Source: Actinomycetes bacterium (GTDB lineage Bacteria; Actinomycetota; Acidimicrobiia; Acidimicrobiales; RAAP-2). From it: a DNA stretch of 64,000 nucleotides. Below the pieces are notes generated by a model. That model made no database searches and was not told the origin of the DNA. It saw only the letters and a program-made list of their open reading frames with translations. Below, piece after piece: positions 22,205 to 29,563 of this stretch. Within the stretch, counting starts at the first letter, position 1. Each line of letters opens with the position of its first letter. The stretch lies in the NCBI GenBank assembly GCA_021793395.1, contig JAJYSU010000007.1:1-64000 (forward strand). The letters are read 5' to 3'. The position numbers and the translations under genes were made by a program.

Positions 22205-22277
22205 GCCTGGGTAGCTCAGTCGGTAGAGCAGCGCATTCGTAATGCGCAGGTCAAGGGTTCGAATCCCTTCCCAGGCT
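22205..22277 (+). tRNA. tRNA-Thr (anticodon CGT)
   Basis: GCCTGGGTAGCTCAGTCGGTAGAGCAGCGCATTCGTAATGCGCAGGTCAAGGGTTCGAATCCCTTCCCAGGCT; acceptor GCCTGGG/CCCAGGC; loop TTCGTAA. Confidence 0.95.
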
Positions 22278-23573
22278 CCGGTGTACCTCACGGGCGAAGT
22301 CCCGCGAGCGTTCCTCCCAGTCGTGATACCGATCGAAGCTGGGCGCGGCGGGTGAGAGCAGCACGACGCCGCCGTCATTCAGCGCGTTGAGCGCGTGCTC
22401 GACGGCCTCACCCATCGTGGTCACGTCGTACTGGCTGACGCTCGGCGCTCGCTCGCGAGTCACCTCGGCCAGTCGACGTCCGGCTTCGCCCATCGTGACG
22501 AGAACCGTCGCGGGGCGTCGCGCCGCGAGGGCGTCACTCAGCGCCGCGTAGTCCACACCGCGGTCGAAACCCCCGGCGATCAGCGCGACGGGCTCGTCGG
22601 CGAAGACCGCGAGTGCGGCCAGGGTCGGCAGCGGCGCGGTGGCGAGCCCGTCGTCGACGAAGCGCACCGTCCGCCCGTGGCGCGAGTGTGTGGCGATCAG
22701 GGTGAGCCGTCCGGGAAGGGGAGTGAACGAGGCCGCTCGGCGCGACACGGCCGCGATCACGTCGGCGCGTGGTCGTTCGGTGAGGGCCGTGACGCAGGCA
22801 AGAGCGAGCGCCACGTTGCTCTCGTTGTGGGCACCTAGCAGGCTGAGGGCCCCGACGAGGCCCCCGTCGTCGGGGGCGACGTAGGTGACGTCACCTCCGA
22901 GCTGATCGGCCGCGTCACGCAACACGGGCTGATCGGCCACGAGAGTCCGGTGCCACCCCTCGGCCCGCGTGAGCGACAACTTGTCGTCGTGGTACTGCTC
23001 GAGCGAACCGTGCCAGTTGAGGTGATCGGCGCCGAGCGAGGTCACGACCACCAGGGACGGGGCGACGTCAATGTCGACGCACTGGTAGCTCGAGACCTCG
23101 ACGACGAGCCAGCCGTGGGCGACGTCAACCTGGGGGTCGTAGGGCGGGAGGCCACTGTTGCCCACGCGCTGGGCCTGCTCGCCCACGCACTGGAGAAAGA
23201 AGGCGACGAGCGCGGTCGTCGTGGACTTGCCTTTGGTCCCCGTCACGGCGATGACGCGTGCCCGATCGACGGCGTGGAGCCACAGGTTGAGCGCCGAGGA
23301 GACCACGACGCCGTGGTCCTCCAGGTCGAGCACGTCGGGGCGGCGCCGGGGGATGCCGGGGCTCTTCAGCACCGCGTCGCACGTGAGCAGTGCCTCGTGG
23401 CCGCCGTCGGTGGTCACCAGCACGTCGTCACCTCGCCCCGGAGCGTCGTCCACTAGGACGAGGGATCCCGCAAGACCGAGCAGACGCCGGTGGGCGGCAC
23501 GACCTTCAATGCCGTAGCCGAAGATCCCGATGCGCCGCCCCGCGAGGTCAGCGAAGCCAGTGGGCCGGAGCAC
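22251..23573 (-). CDS. UDP-N-acetylmuramoyl-L-alanine--glutamate ligase (MurD/MurD2-like)
   Basis: 'VIAVTGTKGKSTTTALVAFFLQ', 'SYQCVDIDVAPSLVVVTSLGADHLNWHGSLEQYHDDKLSL', 'FVDDGLATAPLPTLAAL'; probable GTG start at 23573; adjacent to MurL-like gene. Confidence 0.85.
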   Translation of the reverse strand: MLRPTGFADLAGRRIGIFGYGIEGRAAHRRLLGLAGSLVLVDDAPGRGDDVLVTTDGGHEALLTCDAVLKSPGIPRRRPDVLDLEDHGVVVSSALNLWLHAVDRARVIAVTGTKGKSTTTALVAFFLQCVGEQAQRVGNSGLPPYDPQVDVAHGWLVVEVSSYQCVDIDVAPSLVVVTSLGADHLNWHGSLEQYHDDKLSLTRAEGWHRTLVADQPVLRDAADQLGGDVTYVAPDDGGLVGALSLLGAHNESNVALALACVTALTERPRADVIAAVSRRAASFTPLPGRLTLIATHSRHGRTVRFVDDGLATAPLPTLAALAVFADEPVALIAGGFDRGVDYAALSDALAARRPATVLVTMGEAGRRLAEVTRERAPSVSQYDVTTMGEAVEHALNALNDGGVVLLSPAAPSFDRYHDWEERSRDFAREVHRSLGRDSNP

Positions 23574-24846
23574 GCGTGGGTCCTCGGGGTTGTAGGAGAT
23601 CGTCGAGGGGCGGCGACGGCGCCCGGACCGCCAGTGCCGACAGGGCCGGGACGTCGCGCCACGCGTCGAGGCGCACGACGGCCGCGAGCGCCGTCGCACT
23701 TTCGTCGGGATCACCGACGCACTCGAAGGGCTTGTGGTGTTCGCCCAGTCCGACGAGGTCGGTGAGCGACGAGAGACGGTCGGGATTGCTGAGGGGTTCG
23801 ACGCCGAGCATGTCGTGCAGGGCCGCGCGCTCGACGAAGGGGGCCAGCACCAGGTCGATGAAGAGGCACTTGTCGCACTCGCCGCACCACGAGGCGGCTC
23901 GCGTGGTGGGGTCCTGGGTGAACGCTCGGTTGCAACTACGAAAGACGTGGTGGTACGCGACGAGGCGGCTGAAGACGTCGGCGACCCAGAGCTCACTGCG
24001 GTGCCGCAGCAGGCTGGCGACGCTCAGCGACGCCCCGACGGCCTCGTCGAGCGCGGCGCCGATCAACTCCTCGGCCGCGAGCGACTTGCTCCACTGGTGG
24101 TTGATCTCGCGCGTGCCGACGCGCAGATTGGGTATCGACGCGGAATACTCGTTACTCATCACGACCCCGCCGCGGCCGGTGGACACTGCGGCCAGGGCGG
24201 CCAGCAGAGTGATCATTGCCGTGACCGGAACGTGGCCGCGCAGCTGCGCGTCGTCACCGCGCAGAACCTGTGGGTCGATCGCGCGGGTGGCACGAACTAC
24301 CGGGCGTCCGGTGACCGCCGCGGTCTCGTCGAGCACGCGGAAGCGTCCACTCGCCGGGCTGACGATGAAGAGGGCCTGGTTCAGCTGTGCGGGCAACGTC
24401 TCGACACTCACCACGGAGTCGATGCCGCCGCCGAAGGGGACCAGAACGCGCGTGGGGTCCAGTTTGGCGACCGCGGGAGTGCTCGGGCGTCCGCCCACGA
24501 TGACGACGTCGTCGAGCGTGAGCGCGTTGCGGTAGGCGAACTCGCCGAGACCGTCAACGATCGCCGCGCGCACGAGAGCGACGCCGTGAGGCCCTACCGG
24601 AGTCTCGCCGAGATCGATCAACGGGGGAGCGCCGACTTTGTAGTACGAGAGCCCGGCGAGCAGGTACCACAATTCGGCCACGGCCAGTGCGGACGCTTCG
24701 CGTAGCGATCCCGTGCCCTCGAACACGACGGTCTCACGGAATGATCGCCCGTCGAGGTCGTAGTGACCGGTAAGGGTATCGTCGGTGACGTCGAGCCCGA
24801 CGTAGGAGAAGCGACGGGCGCGCCGGGTCATCGTTCCCATCGGCAC
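23548..24846 (-). CDS. murL: MurL-like UDP-MurNAc-L-Ala-L-Glu epimerase
   Basis: 432 aa; 'VLVPFGGGIDSVVSVE' and 'ASWCGECDKCLFIDLVLAPF'; overlaps MurD-like gene. Confidence 0.75.
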   Translation of the reverse strand: MPMGTMTRRARRFSYVGLDVTDDTLTGHYDLDGRSFRETVVFEGTGSLREASALAVAELWYLLAGLSYYKVGAPPLIDLGETPVGPHGVALVRAAIVDGLGEFAYRNALTLDDVVIVGGRPSTPAVAKLDPTRVLVPFGGGIDSVVSVETLPAQLNQALFIVSPASGRFRVLDETAAVTGRPVVRATRAIDPQVLRGDDAQLRGHVPVTAMITLLAALAAVSTGRGGVVMSNEYSASIPNLRVGTREINHQWSKSLAAEELIGAALDEAVGASLSVASLLRHRSELWVADVFSRLVAYHHVFRSCNRAFTQDPTTRAASWCGECDKCLFIDLVLAPFVERAALHDMLGVEPLSNPDRLSSLTDLVGLGEHHKPFECVGDPDESATALAAVVRLDAWRDVPALSALAVRAPSPPLDDLLQPRGPTRAPAHWLR

Positions 24847-24851
24847 TTATG

Positions 24852-25580
24852 TTACGTGCTGGGGTGGAGGCGGGCGACGAGCGCGAAGCGGCCGCAGGGC
24901 CGGGCGGCGCGGTCACTGAAGAAAGTGGCGCGGTCATCGGTTCGCTCGTCGCTGGTGGTGAGTCGTTCGTCGGCCACGCCGGCGCCGCGCACGCGCCACT
25001 CGACGACGCGCGTCAGGTCGAGCAGTGAGCGATCACCGTGGTCGGCTCGCAGAGCCCCGGGAACGTCGCGGAAGTGGGTGGCAACGTCGGGGCCGACTTG
25101 GTAGCGATCACCCGATATGGCGGGTCCGACGACGACGTGCACGTCCTCGACGCGCTCGAAGCGGGCGAGGGCGGCCTCGAGCACGCCGGCCACGAGTCCG
25201 CGCCAGCCCGCGTGGACGACGGCGATGCGCTCGCGGAGCGGGTCCATCAGCAGTACGGGGACACAGTCGGCGACCAGGATCGCGAGGGCGAGGTGGCGCG
25301 AGGACGTGACCAGGGCATCGGCGGGCGCGATCGCACCGTCGCCGGGTCCCGTGAGCTCGACGACCTCGCGACCGTGGACCTGAGGGACGATGATGAGATC
25401 GTGCTCGCCGACACCGGCCGCGTCGGCGACGCGTCGGCGGTTCTCGCGCACCCGAGCGGGGTCGTCACCCACGTGATCTCCCAGATTGAGCGAGTCGTAG
25501 GGCGCGTCGCTCACGCCGCCCGAGCGTGTCGTCACGAAAGCGTCCACGCCGAGGGCCCGAGCGCTGTCGATCACGAGCAC
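24852..25580 (-). CDS. pgeF: Peptidoglycan editing factor PgeF / YfiH laccase-domain protein
   Basis: 'QVHGREVVEL', 'ADCVPVLLMDP', 'AVVHAGWRGLVAGVLEAAL'; GTG start at 25580. Confidence 0.88.
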   Translation of the reverse strand: MLVIDSARALGVDAFVTTRSGGVSDAPYDSLNLGDHVGDDPARVRENRRRVADAAGVGEHDLIIVPQVHGREVVELTGPGDGAIAPADALVTSSRHLALAILVADCVPVLLMDPLRERIAVVHAGWRGLVAGVLEAALARFERVEDVHVVVGPAISGDRYQVGPDVATHFRDVPGALRADHGDRSLLDLTRVVEWRVRGAGVADERLTTSDERTDDRATFFSDRAARPCGRFALVARLHPST

Positions 25581-25606: not shown

Positions 25607-26008
25607 TCAGTGCGCCGCGTCGTGGCACGTCGCGCACACTCCCGTCAGTTCGAGGACGTGGTGCACGTCGTAGAAGTGGTGCTCGGCGGCGATCGCGCGC
25701 GCCCACCCTTCGAGGGGTGGTATCTCGATCTCGAGCGTGGCGCCGCACACCCGGCAGGCCAGATGGTGGTGGTGGGACGCGGCGGCGCAGCGCCGGTAGA
25801 GGCTTTCGCCGCGCTCGTTCATCACCGCGTCGACGTCGCCGCTGGCCACCAACTTCTTCAATTGGGCGTACACCGTCGCCAGGGCCACCTGATCGCCGCG
25901 AGCGCGGATGTGTCCGTAGAGATCCTGCGCGCTGATGAATCCCGCGGCGTCATCGAGTGCGGATACGATCGTGCGCCGCTGTGAGGTGTTGCGTGAGTTC
26001 GTGGTCAT
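25607..26008 (-). CDS. Fur family regulator, probably Zur
   Basis: 133 aa; 'TVYAQLKKLVASGDVDAV', 'HHHHLACRVCGATLEIE', 'CATCH'; divergent from zinc/manganese-type ABC genes. Confidence 0.88.
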   Translation of the reverse strand: MTTNSRNTSQRRTIVSALDDAAGFISAQDLYGHIRARGDQVALATVYAQLKKLVASGDVDAVMNERGESLYRRCAAASHHHHLACRVCGATLEIEIPPLEGWARAIAAEHHFYDVHHVLELTGVCATCHDAAH

Positions 26009-26030
26009 CGGCGGAGGGAGGATTTGTTAT

Positions 26031-26045
26031 CTAGAATGATTCCGA
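26031..26045. promoter_or_regulatory. Candidate Zur box
   Basis: ctaGAATGATTCcga, palindromic core with AATGATT, in the Fur-like/ABC divergent intergenic region. Confidence 0.5.
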
Positions 26046-26083
26046 GTATACTACGTGGAACGGTTCTAGGCAAGGGGACGGTA

Positions 26084-27028
26084 GTGAGAGTGACAACTCA
26101 GCGAACTCGACGGTGGCATCGCGTCGCGGTTGCTGTGACGATGGCGGTGGTGGCCGTGGGACTCAGCGGGTGCAACTCGGGAACGACCGGCGCGGCCGGG
26201 GTGATCCAGGCCGTGGGGGCGGAGAACCAGTACGCCAACGTCGTCGCTCAGATCGGCGGGCGCTACGTGCACGTCACGGCCATCATGAGTAACCCGAGCG
26301 TGGATCCGCACACTTTCGAAGTGTCCACTTCGGTCGCCCAGGCCGTGTCCCAGGCGCGTCTCGTGGTGCAGAACGGACTGGGCTACGACCAGTTCATGAC
26401 GCAGTTGGAGTCGGCGTCGCCCTCTTCCTCACGCCGCGTGATCGACGTCCAGCACCTCCTGGGACTGAGCGACACCACGGCCAATCCGCACCTGTGGTAC
26501 AAGCCGTCGACCATGCCGACCGTGGCCGCGGCGGTCGAGCGCGACCTGGCGACAATGGAGCCGTCGCACGCGAGCTACTTCGCCGGACGCCTGGCGAGTT
26601 TCCGCTCGTCCCTGGCGCCCGAGACCGCCGCCATTCACGCCTTCCGCGCGCGCTTCGCCGGCCGGGTGGTGGCGACCACCGAACCCGTGGCCGACTACCT
26701 GCTCTCGGCGCTCGGCCTCGTGGACGCGACCCCGTGGCGCTTTCAGGCGGACGTCATGAACGGGATCGATCCGTCGCCCGAGGACGTCGCCACACTGCAG
26801 ACGATGATCAGTGACCACCACGTGGCGGCGCTGTGCTACAACGCGCAGGTCACGAGTTCGGTGACCCAGGCAGTGCGCTCGCAGGCTCAAACCTCTCACG
26901 TGCCGATCGTGGCGGTCTACGAGACCATGCCCGAACCGGGCTACAACTATCAGAGTTGGATGATCGCCGAGATCCGCGCGCTGACGCGGGCCCTCAGCGA
27001 GCACGTCTCGACGACGGTGCTGCGATGA
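26084..27028 (+). CDS. Metal ABC transporter substrate-binding lipoprotein (ZnuA/TroA-like)
   Basis: Signal peptide ending 'VVAVGLSGCNSG' lipobox; 'DPHTFEVSTSVAQAVSQARLVVQNGLGYD'. Confidence 0.88.
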   Translation: MRVTTQRTRRWHRVAVAVTMAVVAVGLSGCNSGTTGAAGVIQAVGAENQYANVVAQIGGRYVHVTAIMSNPSVDPHTFEVSTSVAQAVSQARLVVQNGLGYDQFMTQLESASPSSSRRVIDVQHLLGLSDTTANPHLWYKPSTMPTVAAAVERDLATMEPSHASYFAGRLASFRSSLAPETAAIHAFRARFAGRVVATTEPVADYLLSALGLVDATPWRFQADVMNGIDPSPEDVATLQTMISDHHVAALCYNAQVTSSVTQAVRSQAQTSHVPIVAVYETMPEPGYNYQSWMIAEIRALTRALSEHVSTTVLR

Positions 27029-27867
27029 GCGCCCGCGACCTCTCCCACGACTCTTCTCAGGGGCTGCTCGAGGTTCGCCACGTCAACGTCAGTGTGGAGG
27101 GACGCGACATCCTGCGTGACGTGAACTTCTCGATCAAGCACGGGGAGTTCACGGGGTTGATCGGTTCGAACGGCGCGGGTAAGACAACACTCTTTCGGGT
27201 CATTCTCGGGATCCAGGAGCACGCGTCGGGCGAGGTCCTCCTACACGGCGAGCCCCTGACTCGGGCGAATCGCTCGATCGGCTACGTGCCCCAGAAGGTC
27301 CTCTTTGACCCCGACCTGCCGATTCGGGCTCGCGACCTGGTCGCGCTCGGCTCCGACGGGCACCGCTACGGTCTGCGGCGTCGTCCGCGAGCCCTGCACG
27401 AGGCGGTCGACGAGATGCTCGACGCGGTGGACGCCGGGGCGTTCGCGGACCGTCGAGTGGGCGGACTGTCGGGCGGGGAGCAACAGCGTGTCCTGATCGC
27501 CCACTCGCTCATCAGTCGGCCGGAGTTGCTGCTGCTCGACGAGCCGCTCGCCAACCTGGACCCCGGCAGTGTTCAGGAGATCATCGCGCTGCTGCACCGT
27601 GTCTCGCAGCGCCAGCGGGTCGCCATCCTGCTCTCCGCGCACGAGATGAACCCCCTGCTACCGGTGATGGACCGCATCGTGTACGTGGCCAACGGTCACG
27701 TCGCGAGCGGGACGACGGACGAGGTCGTGCGCCCCAGCGTGCTCAGCGAGCTCTACGGGCACCACGTTGACGTGCTGCGCGTGCACGGTCGCGTGCTGGT
27801 GGTGGCGACGGCCCTACCGGTGGGACCGGCCCCCAACGATCAGCACCCCGAATTCGTGGTCGAGTAG
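27025..27867 (+). CDS. Metal ABC transporter ATP-binding protein
   Basis: 'LIGSNGAGKTTLFRVIL', 'GGLSGGEQQRVLIAHSL', 'LLLLDEPLANLD'. Confidence 0.93.
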   Translation: MSARDLSHDSSQGLLEVRHVNVSVEGRDILRDVNFSIKHGEFTGLIGSNGAGKTTLFRVILGIQEHASGEVLLHGEPLTRANRSIGYVPQKVLFDPDLPIRARDLVALGSDGHRYGLRRRPRALHEAVDEMLDAVDAGAFADRRVGGLSGGEQQRVLIAHSLISRPELLLLDEPLANLDPGSVQEIIALLHRVSQRQRVAILLSAHEMNPLLPVMDRIVYVANGHVASGTTDEVVRPSVLSELYGHHVDVLRVHGRVLVVATALPVGPAPNDQHPEFVVE

Positions 27868-27872
27868 CCCTG

Positions 27873-28763
27873 ATGACCTGGCTCTTCGAACCCGGATGGT
27901 GGGCTAACGGCACCGTGCGTACGGCGTTGGTGGTGGGCGGCATCGTCGCCGTCACCTCGGCGGTGGTCGGGATCTTCACGGTGATGCGAGGTCAGTCCTT
28001 CGCCGGACACGCGCTCACCGACGTGGCGACCGCCGGCGGGGCGGGGGCGTTTCTGGCCGGCGTGGGGCCCCTCCTGGGTTTCGTGGGTGGCGGGGTTCTG
28101 GGCGCGGGTGCCATGGACGCCATCGGGGTGCAGCGCGTCAAGGGCCGCGACATCGCGACCGGCGTCGTCCTCGGCGCCGCGATGGGTCTCGCGGCGCTCT
28201 TCCTCTTCCTGTCCGCGCGTACCAGTTCGGCGACCGGAGCGACGCAACTAGTCCTCTTTGGCTCCATCTTTACGGTGAGCCCGTCCACCCTGCCGGAAGT
28301 CTCGTGGCTGAGCGGCGCCGTGCTCGTGACGATGGCGCTCGTGGCGCGCCCACTGCTGCTCAGCTCGCTGAGCGTCGAACTGGCGGCCGCCCGGGGCATA
28401 CGTCTGCGGGCGGTGGGTCTCATCTTCATGGTGGCGTTAGCGGTCGCGGTGGGCATGTCGGCGATCGTGATCGGCGCGATCTTGTCCACCGCACTGCTGA
28501 TCGGACCGCCCGCGAGCGCCCTGCGCGTGGCGCGGCGCGTGGGTAGCGCGGTGGCTCTGGCGGCGGGGCTGGGCGTGCTCGCGACCTGGGTCGGCGTGCT
28601 GCTGGCCTACGACAGTTACTACTGGTCCGCGTCGCACCGCAGTCTTCCCGTCAGCTTCTTCGTGGTCGTCGTGATCGTCGCGGAGTACGCCCTGGCCAGT
28701 GTGCTGCGACGGCGCACCCGACGCGTGCCGACCGCGGTCGTCGAGCCGGAGGGGTGGACCTAG
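27873..28763 (+). CDS. Metal ABC transporter permease (ABC-3)
   Basis: 'VVGIFTVMRGQSFAGHALTDVATAGGAGAFLAG', multiple TM. Confidence 0.88.
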   Translation: MTWLFEPGWWANGTVRTALVVGGIVAVTSAVVGIFTVMRGQSFAGHALTDVATAGGAGAFLAGVGPLLGFVGGGVLGAGAMDAIGVQRVKGRDIATGVVLGAAMGLAALFLFLSARTSSATGATQLVLFGSIFTVSPSTLPEVSWLSGAVLVTMALVARPLLLSSLSVELAAARGIRLRAVGLIFMVALAVAVGMSAIVIGAILSTALLIGPPASALRVARRVGSAVALAAGLGVLATWVGVLLAYDSYYWSASHRSLPVSFFVVVVIVAEYALASVLRRRTRRVPTAVVEPEGWT

Positions 28764-29563
28764 TGTTCTCGAGTTTCATGACCAATGCCTGGCTTAGCGG
28801 CACGATCGTGGCGCTGTTGGCCGGAGTCGTCGGGTTCTTCGTGGTGCTGCGCGGTGCGTCGTTCGCGGCGCACGCCATACCTAACGGCGCTTTCGCCGGT
28901 GCCGCGGGGGCGTACCTGATCGGTGTCAGCCCGTTACTGGGACTGGTCTCGTTCGCCCTGCTCTCGGCCCTCGGAATCGGGATGACCAGCCGGCGGACGC
29001 GTAACGACGTCGCGACGGCCCTGTCGCTGGTCGCGATGCTGGCCCTGGGCGCCGCGTTTCTGTCGGTGAGCCTGATCTACGAGCCGACAATCAACGCGCT
29101 GCTCTTCGGCGAGATCCTCGGCGTGTCGAGCAGCCAACTGGCTCCGGTACTGATCCTCGGGGTGGTGAGCGTCGGCGTACTGGCGTGGTTCTATCGTCCC
29201 CTGATGTTCACGTCGGTGGCCCCCGAGTTGGCTCGGGCGCGTGGCGTCAACGCCACGCTGGTTGACGTGGCGTTCCTGGTGGTGGTGGCGCTCGCCACGG
29301 CGCTGACGGTGCCCGTCGTGGGGGCGCTGCTTACCTTTTCGCTCATGATCGGCCCACCGGCCGCCGCCAGGATCCTGGTGGCGCGCCCGGGCTGGGCGGT
29401 GGCCGGCTCGGTGGGACTCTCGTTGGTGACCGTCTGGGTGTCGATCGGCGCGTCGTACGCCTTCAACCTGCCGATCGGGTTCTTCGTGGGAGCCCTGGGG
29501 GCGACGCTGTACCTGGGCGCGCGCGTCGTCGCGCGACGCCGGGTCGTCCGCTCGGCTACGTAA
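28754..29563 (+). CDS. Metal ABC transporter permease (ABC-3), second copy
   Basis: 'VVLRGASFAAHAIPNGAFAGAAGAYLIG', 'ARARGVNATLVDVAFLVVVALATALTVPVVGALL'. Confidence 0.87.
   Translation: MDLVFSSFMTNAWLSGTIVALLAGVVGFFVVLRGASFAAHAIPNGAFAGAAGAYLIGVSPLLGLVSFALLSALGIGMTSRRTRNDVATALSLVAMLALGAAFLSVSLIYEPTINALLFGEILGVSSSQLAPVLILGVVSVGVLAWFYRPLMFTSVAPELARARGVNATLVDVAFLVVVALATALTVPVVGALLTFSLMIGPPAAARILVARPGWAVAGSVGLSLVTVWVSIGASYAFNLPIGFFVGALGATLYLGARVVARRRVVRSAT

Follow-up and report, generated by a model that had tools for sequence, protein, structure and literature searches.

A probable MurD2-MurL route to peptidoglycan D-glutamate in a RAAP-2 member of the Acidimicrobiales

How does an organism in whose draft genome no MurI is found obtain D-glutamate for its peptidoglycan? 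The question is raised by a stretch of 64,000 nucleotides (nt) from an Actinomycetes bacterium (Acidimicrobiales; RAAP-2; assembly GCA_021793395.1, contig JAJYSU010000007.1, positions 1 to 64,000; “the window”), in which a Mur ligase gene overlaps a gene for a MurL-like protein. The MurL-MurD2 pathway has reportedly been known since 2017; what is added here is a ligase with variant specificity residues, MurL-MurD fusions that occur naturally in the class, and a predicted fold for MurL. We consider it very probable (roughly 0.92), judging from sequence comparison, that the two genes form a MurD2-MurL module and provide the route of this organism to peptidoglycan D-glutamate. In such a route, MurD2 would join L-glutamate to the cell wall precursor and MurL would then invert the terminal L-glutamate to D-glutamate on the precursor (with ATP consumed and AMP released), after which the canonical pathway would resume with MurE and MurF. 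Inversion of L- to D-glutamate with conversion of ATP to AMP has been shown for MurL of Xanthomonas oryzae, and activity of the MurD2/MurL pair has been confirmed also for Micromonospora and Salinispora (PMC8788868). By analogy with the X. oryzae homologue, the MurL of the window would likewise be an epimerase. Open-access reviews describe the pathway as limited to relatively few genera.

MurL, MurI and the sources of D-glutamate

The two genes of the candidate module are:
22251 to 23573, minus strand: Mur ligase, putative MurD2; TIGR01087 at 248 bits; sole MurD of the genome; D183, L310 and R338 at the positions of Escherichia coli D182, K319 and K348
23548 to 24846, minus strand: murL, 432 amino acids (aa); NF041275 at E = 4.4e-80; GGGxDS loop at residues 139 to 144; C305, C321, C324 and C327; extra invariant C376

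Translation of murL starts at a GTG at 24846, 5 nt beyond the pgeF stop, and that of the ligase at a GTG at 23573, inside the end of murL, giving a 26-nt overlap. A preliminary description of this DNA had quoted motifs from both products, and all were present where it placed them (“VLVPFGGGIDSVVSVE” and “ASWCGECDKCLFIDLVLAPF” in the 432-aa MurL product; GTKGKSTTT and SYQCVDI in the ligase). It had also called the product of 23548 to 24846 MurL-like and let this claim stand or fall with a MurL model. The NCBIfam hidden Markov model (HMM) NF041275 (MurL) matched the product over 390 residues and profile positions 8 to 401 of 447 (269 bits, E = 4.4e-80), which bears the claim out. The score lies under the curated NF041275 cut-off of 700 bits, which was set for the Xanthomonadales equivalog, as did the scores of all 28 MurL-positive genomes in a sample of the phylum (strong members reach 476 bits); the 24 MurL genomes in a sample of the class scored 244 to 371 bits. 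Taken together, the motif and HMM evidence for the MurL and MurD pair is far beyond chance level.

As the preliminary description had suggested, murI, a D-amino-acid transaminase and a second murD were sought in the genome of the window (a draft, 92% complete), and none was found. The MurI family was represented by neither a PF01177 gene nor a TIGR00067 match. The only class IV aminotransferase was IlvE (404 bits against a cut-off of 245.6) and no D-amino-acid transaminase scored above its cut-off (the IlvE gene reached 123 against 277); the IlvE-like enzyme was rejected as a source of D-glutamate on these scores. Six genes were of the Mur ligase type (murE and murC, both confirmed by HMM; a murF-type gene beside ddl; folC, named by sequence reading; murT beside gatD; and the ligase of the window), leaving the last as the only MurD. 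The dcw cluster (contig C89, locus L008; gene names read from the sequences) ran mraZ-rsmH-ftsL-ftsI-murE-mraY-ftsW-murG-murC-ftsQ-ftsZ, with no murD or murF and with no murB in the stretch read. The murF gene adjoins ddl on contig C9, away from the dcw cluster.

Since the absence of murI from one 92%-complete draft is by itself weak evidence, relatives were surveyed. In the phylum sample (n = 347), MurL was found in 28 genomes, MurI (E ≤ 1e-25) in 310, both in none and neither in 9, so that MurI occurred in 0/28 MurL genomes versus 310/319 others (Fisher P about 9e-34). The class sample (n = 217) gave 24 genomes with MurL, 134 with MurI over cut-off and none with both (0/24 versus 134/193; Fisher P about 9e-12). 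These P values ignore shared ancestry; nevertheless, MurL was found in many separate families. Within the family of the window it was present in 92 of 100 genomes, in 68 of the 69 of high quality and in all 21 genera sampled, and the nearest named MurL loci were from metagenome-assembled genomes (MAGs) of Acidimicrobiaceae/Acidimicrobiales. As judged from gene content, the MurL route has in all likelihood replaced the textbook MurI route across this whole family.

Other enzymes of D-amino-acid metabolism turned up among the relatives. PF01177 matches over cut-off in 10 of 100 family members were considered as a hidden MurI and set aside; the one that was scanned is an aspartate/glutamate-type racemase (TIGR00035), not MurI, and the genome of the window has none. 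A minority of the family (L155 and L156; G117 and G592) carries an aspartate/glutamate racemase-like gene alongside MurL, that of L155 being TIGR00035. Genomes G128, G145, G151, G155, G290 and others matched neither MurI nor MurL, and MurD was canonical in the first four. In several genomes without either protein, additional genes resemble D-amino-acid transaminase (up to 197 bits against the cut-off of 277), and D-glutamate may be made there by this means; G128 has weak matches of this kind only.

Linkage of murL to a MurD gene was close to universal. The two lay side by side in every one of the 24 class loci and in 77 of the 80 named ones; of the other three, two are truncated at contig ends and the third (L084) has the genes ∼3 kb apart. 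In Micromonosporaceae loci murL and murD2 were mostly divergent. Fusions of MurL and MurD into a single open frame, matched by both models, were found in genus g58, which belongs to a different family of the class (L015:1321-3951 in G126, 877 codons; L019:100-2682 in G009, 861 codons); in both, the ligase part carries Cys at the position of D182. Pairwise MurL distances were correlated with those of MurD2 (r = 0.94; 0 of 500 permutations as high), to which shared species history contributes. In L117, from a record titled Candidatus Saccharibacteria MAG, MurL has a very divergent MurD (26% identity) upstream that is placed close to the canonical side in the MurD tree; this ligase could be a different MurD2 lineage or the contig a contaminant.

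Is the ligase a MurD2?

The window ligase scores above the TIGR01087 (murD) cut-off of 212 bits and, like canonical MurD, is a full Mur ligase with the same three-domain sequence. It differs from canonical MurD in lacking K319 and K348 and in lying outside both the canonical clade and the dcw cluster. The MurD tree, built by a quick search, comprised 74 MurL-linked and 21 canonical sequences; the canonical set was drawn mainly from relatives in the order and class that carry MurI, with E. coli added. A single branch (Shimodaira-Hasegawa-like approximate likelihood ratio test [SH-aLRT] 98) split the tree into MurL-linked and canonical sides, three long rows being uncertain. The MurL-linked side includes ligases of Xanthomonadales and Micromonospora, both of which have members that have been assayed, and the ligase of the window groups there and not with canonical MurDs of its own order. 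The proposal in the preliminary description that the organism may build its stem peptide via MurD2 and MurL is thus supported by the absence of a MurI family member, a sole MurD, its place in the MurL-linked clade and the mutual exclusion of MurL and MurI.

Published positions for L- versus D-glutamate specificity (PMC8788868) were read from an alignment of 93 MurL-linked and 20 canonical MurDs. The K348 position (E. coli numbering) is Arg in 92/93 MurL-linked versus 1/20 canonical sequences, and R338 in the window. At the K319 position, all 93 MurL-linked ligases have Leu, Ile or Phe (L310 in the window) and all 20 canonical ones Lys, making K319 loss the most consistent mark of MurL-linked ligases. 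Among the same 93, by contrast, the D182 position varies (38 Glu, 52 Asp, 3 Cys); with Glu in only 38, the Glu197 of X. oryzae MurD2 is not universal and does not define the MurL-linked group. Two of the three positions in the window ligase are thus MurD2-like (R338, L310) and the third is not (D183). The preliminary description had called 22251 to 23573 MurD2-like, which holds for clade, R338 and L310 and fails for the Glu197 determinant. From homology, clade and residues, we infer that the ligase adds L-glutamate.

Several points weigh against the proposed route, in addition to the incompleteness of the draft. Position 183 of the window ligase is Asp, against Glu197 in X. oryzae MurD2, and exchange of Glu197 for Asp altered the stereospecificity of that enzyme (PMC8788868), so that the residues by themselves do not guarantee use of L-glutamate. 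Canonical MurDs are few in the tree, with 20 of the same class and E. coli. Finally, DapF can serve as a glutamate racemase in Chlamydia (PMC5885031).

The mixed residues (D183 with R338 and L310) would also suit a ligase that takes both L- and D-glutamate, with the D center coming chiefly, though not solely, from MurL and recycled or imported D-glutamate also usable. The MurD of Streptococcus mutans, with Arg at the R338 position, slightly accepts L-glutamate, and E. coli MurD K319T gains use of it; however, X. oryzae MurD2 is essentially L-specific (PMC8788868). We regard this as unlikely, at something like one chance in five, and as a modification of the MurD2-MurL route rather than its opposite. 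Far less plausible is an ordinary MurD adding free D-glutamate from a diverged racemase, a D-amino-acid transaminase or a promiscuous DapF, with MurL doing something else. The retained Asp183, a TIGR01087 score over cut-off, the Chlamydia DapF that makes D-glutamate (PMC5885031) and the racemase-like gene of a few family members would all fit such a scheme. Yet the genome has no PF01177 gene and no class IV aminotransferase but IlvE, every MurL-linked ligase lacks the K319 present in all 20 canonical MurDs sampled, and a separate MurD clade, perfect MurL/MurI exclusion and MurL-MurD fusions all speak against it.

Known systems support the MurD2-MurL assignment while marking this one as a variant. 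As in X. oryzae (XOO_1319/XOO_1320), the genes are adjacent, the MurL HMM matches at near full length, murI and a D-amino-acid transaminase are absent, and the ligase has the R358-type arginine. The pair differs in its MurL score (∼270 bits against the 700-bit Xanthomonadales cut-off), in Asp183 in place of Glu197, and in its linkage to pgeF, a Fur-family regulator and a zinc-type transporter. With the Micromonospora and Salinispora pairs it shares an actinobacterial pathway, adjacent genes and a side of the MurD tree, but Micromonosporaceae genes are mostly divergent and their ligases mostly have Glu at the D182 position, whereas the window genes overlap on one strand and the ligase has Asp.

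Predicted fold and chemistry of MurL

Open-access reviews describe MurL as a protein without known domains and of unclear mechanism. The MurL of the window had no match in a Pfam scan, and the 24 class MurL proteins searched against Pfam at E up to 1 gave nothing consistent (PF06508, QueC, was matched by 0/24). Searches of the PDB with the MurL sequence and profile returned no solved MurL and no clear relative by sequence, and a search of viral contigs found no relative. An AlphaFold 2 model of MurL (predicted local distance difference test score [pLDDT] 94.2; predicted template modeling score [pTM] 0.93) was compared with solved structures by Foldseek. The best matches, all of the QueC family, were QatC (7.5e-6) and QueC (1.5e-5), both at probability 1.00, and Cap9; matches outside the family appeared only at E above 0.02. 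Alignment to E. coli QueC with hhalign was weak (P = 1e-4, probability 56), placing GGGxDS over SGGxDS and the C-terminal cysteines over the QueC zinc motif. Twelve residues were invariant in 103/103 aligned MurLs (G139, G141, D143, S144, C305, C321, C324, C327, C376, H205, H250 and K254), among them a zinc-type pattern C-x15-CxxCxxC (C305, C321, C324 and C327), the x15 spacing of which falls between x8 in QueC and x19 in QatC (PMC13329287, PMC13279940). MurL is accordingly predicted to have a QueC/QatC-like PP-loop fold with a zinc-type site. It resembles QueC, QatC and Cap9 in predicted fold, in the phosphate loop xGGxDS and in the Cys-x(n)-CxxCxxC pattern, and differs from them in overall similarity (Foldseek template modeling score 0.33 to 0.40 on the MurL query), in its N- and C-terminal parts, in having no PF06508 match, in its chemistry and in the invariant Cys376 outside the zinc quartet.

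A possible mechanism can be read from these features. The PP-loop site (GGGxDS) would adenylate the α-carboxylate of the terminal L-glutamate, making its α-hydrogen more acidic; an invariant residue, with Cys376 the leading candidate, would take the proton off and give it back on the opposite face; and hydrolysis of the acyl-adenylate would end the reaction and thereby render the step one-way. We infer this catalytic assignment from a predicted fold and from residues invariant in an alignment. The discoverers of MurL reportedly proposed an adenylate intermediate, and QueC acts with ATP at a carboxylate, which fits both that proposal and the ATP-to-AMP chemistry of MurL. No paper tying MurL to QueC was found in a search of open-access literature, and priority is therefore not claimed; two 2026 papers on the QueC family do not mention MurL in their main text (PMC13329287, PMC13279940).

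That MurL instead works on the precursor as a QueC-type enzyme of nitrogen or nucleobase transfer, for instance in stem-peptide amidation, is hardly credible: the fold match to QueC, QatC and Cap9 and the amide, nitrile or conjugation chemistry of other QueC-like proteins (PMC13329287, PMC13279940) would allow it, but the homologue in X. oryzae acts as an epimerase and the pairs of Micromonospora and Salinispora are active (PMC8788868), MurT-GatD already covers glutamate amidation in this genome, and the co-occurrence of MurL with missing MurI would be left unexplained. For an epimerase, the QueC-like fold and invariant residues turn the mechanism into a set of point mutations, and hence make it testable.

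The surrounding operon and metal supply

Upstream of murL lie further genes and a divergent transporter:
24852 to 25580, minus strand: pgeF, peptidoglycan editing factor, Cu-oxidase_4/YfiH family; PF02578 at E = 2.4e-64; TIGR00726 over cut-off
25607 to 26008, minus strand: Fur-family metalloregulator; PF01475 at E = 8.4e-25; first gene of the putative operon
26024 to 29563, plus strand: divergent zinc-type ABC transporter, znuA/znuC/znuB/znuB-like; PF01297, PF00005 and PF00950 (twice)
26032 to 26044, no strand assigned: operator-like palindrome, box 1 of 2, TAGAATGATTCCG
26056 to 26068, no strand assigned: operator-like palindrome, box 2 of 2, TGGAACGGTTCTA; 24 bp from box 1

The minus-strand genes fur-pgeF-murL-murD2 form a putative operon. 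In the family of the window and in distant relatives (e.g., Kineosporia), pgeF is directly upstream of murL; the fur gene precedes pgeF in the genus, and a divergent ZnuA/ABC/ABC-3 transporter stands opposite the operon in many relatives too. Most loci of such relatives have two palindromic boxes (consensus TGGAATNATTCCA) in the same fur/transporter spacer, and box 2 is the sole perfect TRGAAYNRTTCYA match in the genome. The two-box spacer resembles a Fur/Zur-type operator that would act on both sides, and, as MurL is predicted to bind zinc, the wall operon may be controlled by metal supply. The suggestion in the preliminary description that PgeF edits mis-ligated precursors is a possibility raised by gene neighborhood.

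Joining these strands gives a picture that we hold tentatively, at somewhat less than even odds: MurL as a QueC-family zinc PP-loop epimerase acting via an acyl-adenylate with Cys376 as acid/base, an Acidimicrobiales MurD2 that reads L-glutamate without Glu197, and a fur-pgeF-murL-murD2 operon that responds to metal and lies opposite a zinc transporter. If true, cell wall precursor synthesis would be tied to zinc supply in this organism. More broadly, the MurL route appears to be the only one to D-glutamate visible in an entire actinobacterial family, and MurL and MurI strictly exclude each other in the phylum sample. The discrimination between L- and D-glutamate, which may be relevant to narrow-spectrum inhibitors, can be approached in new ways through the natural fusions and the Asp-type MurD2.

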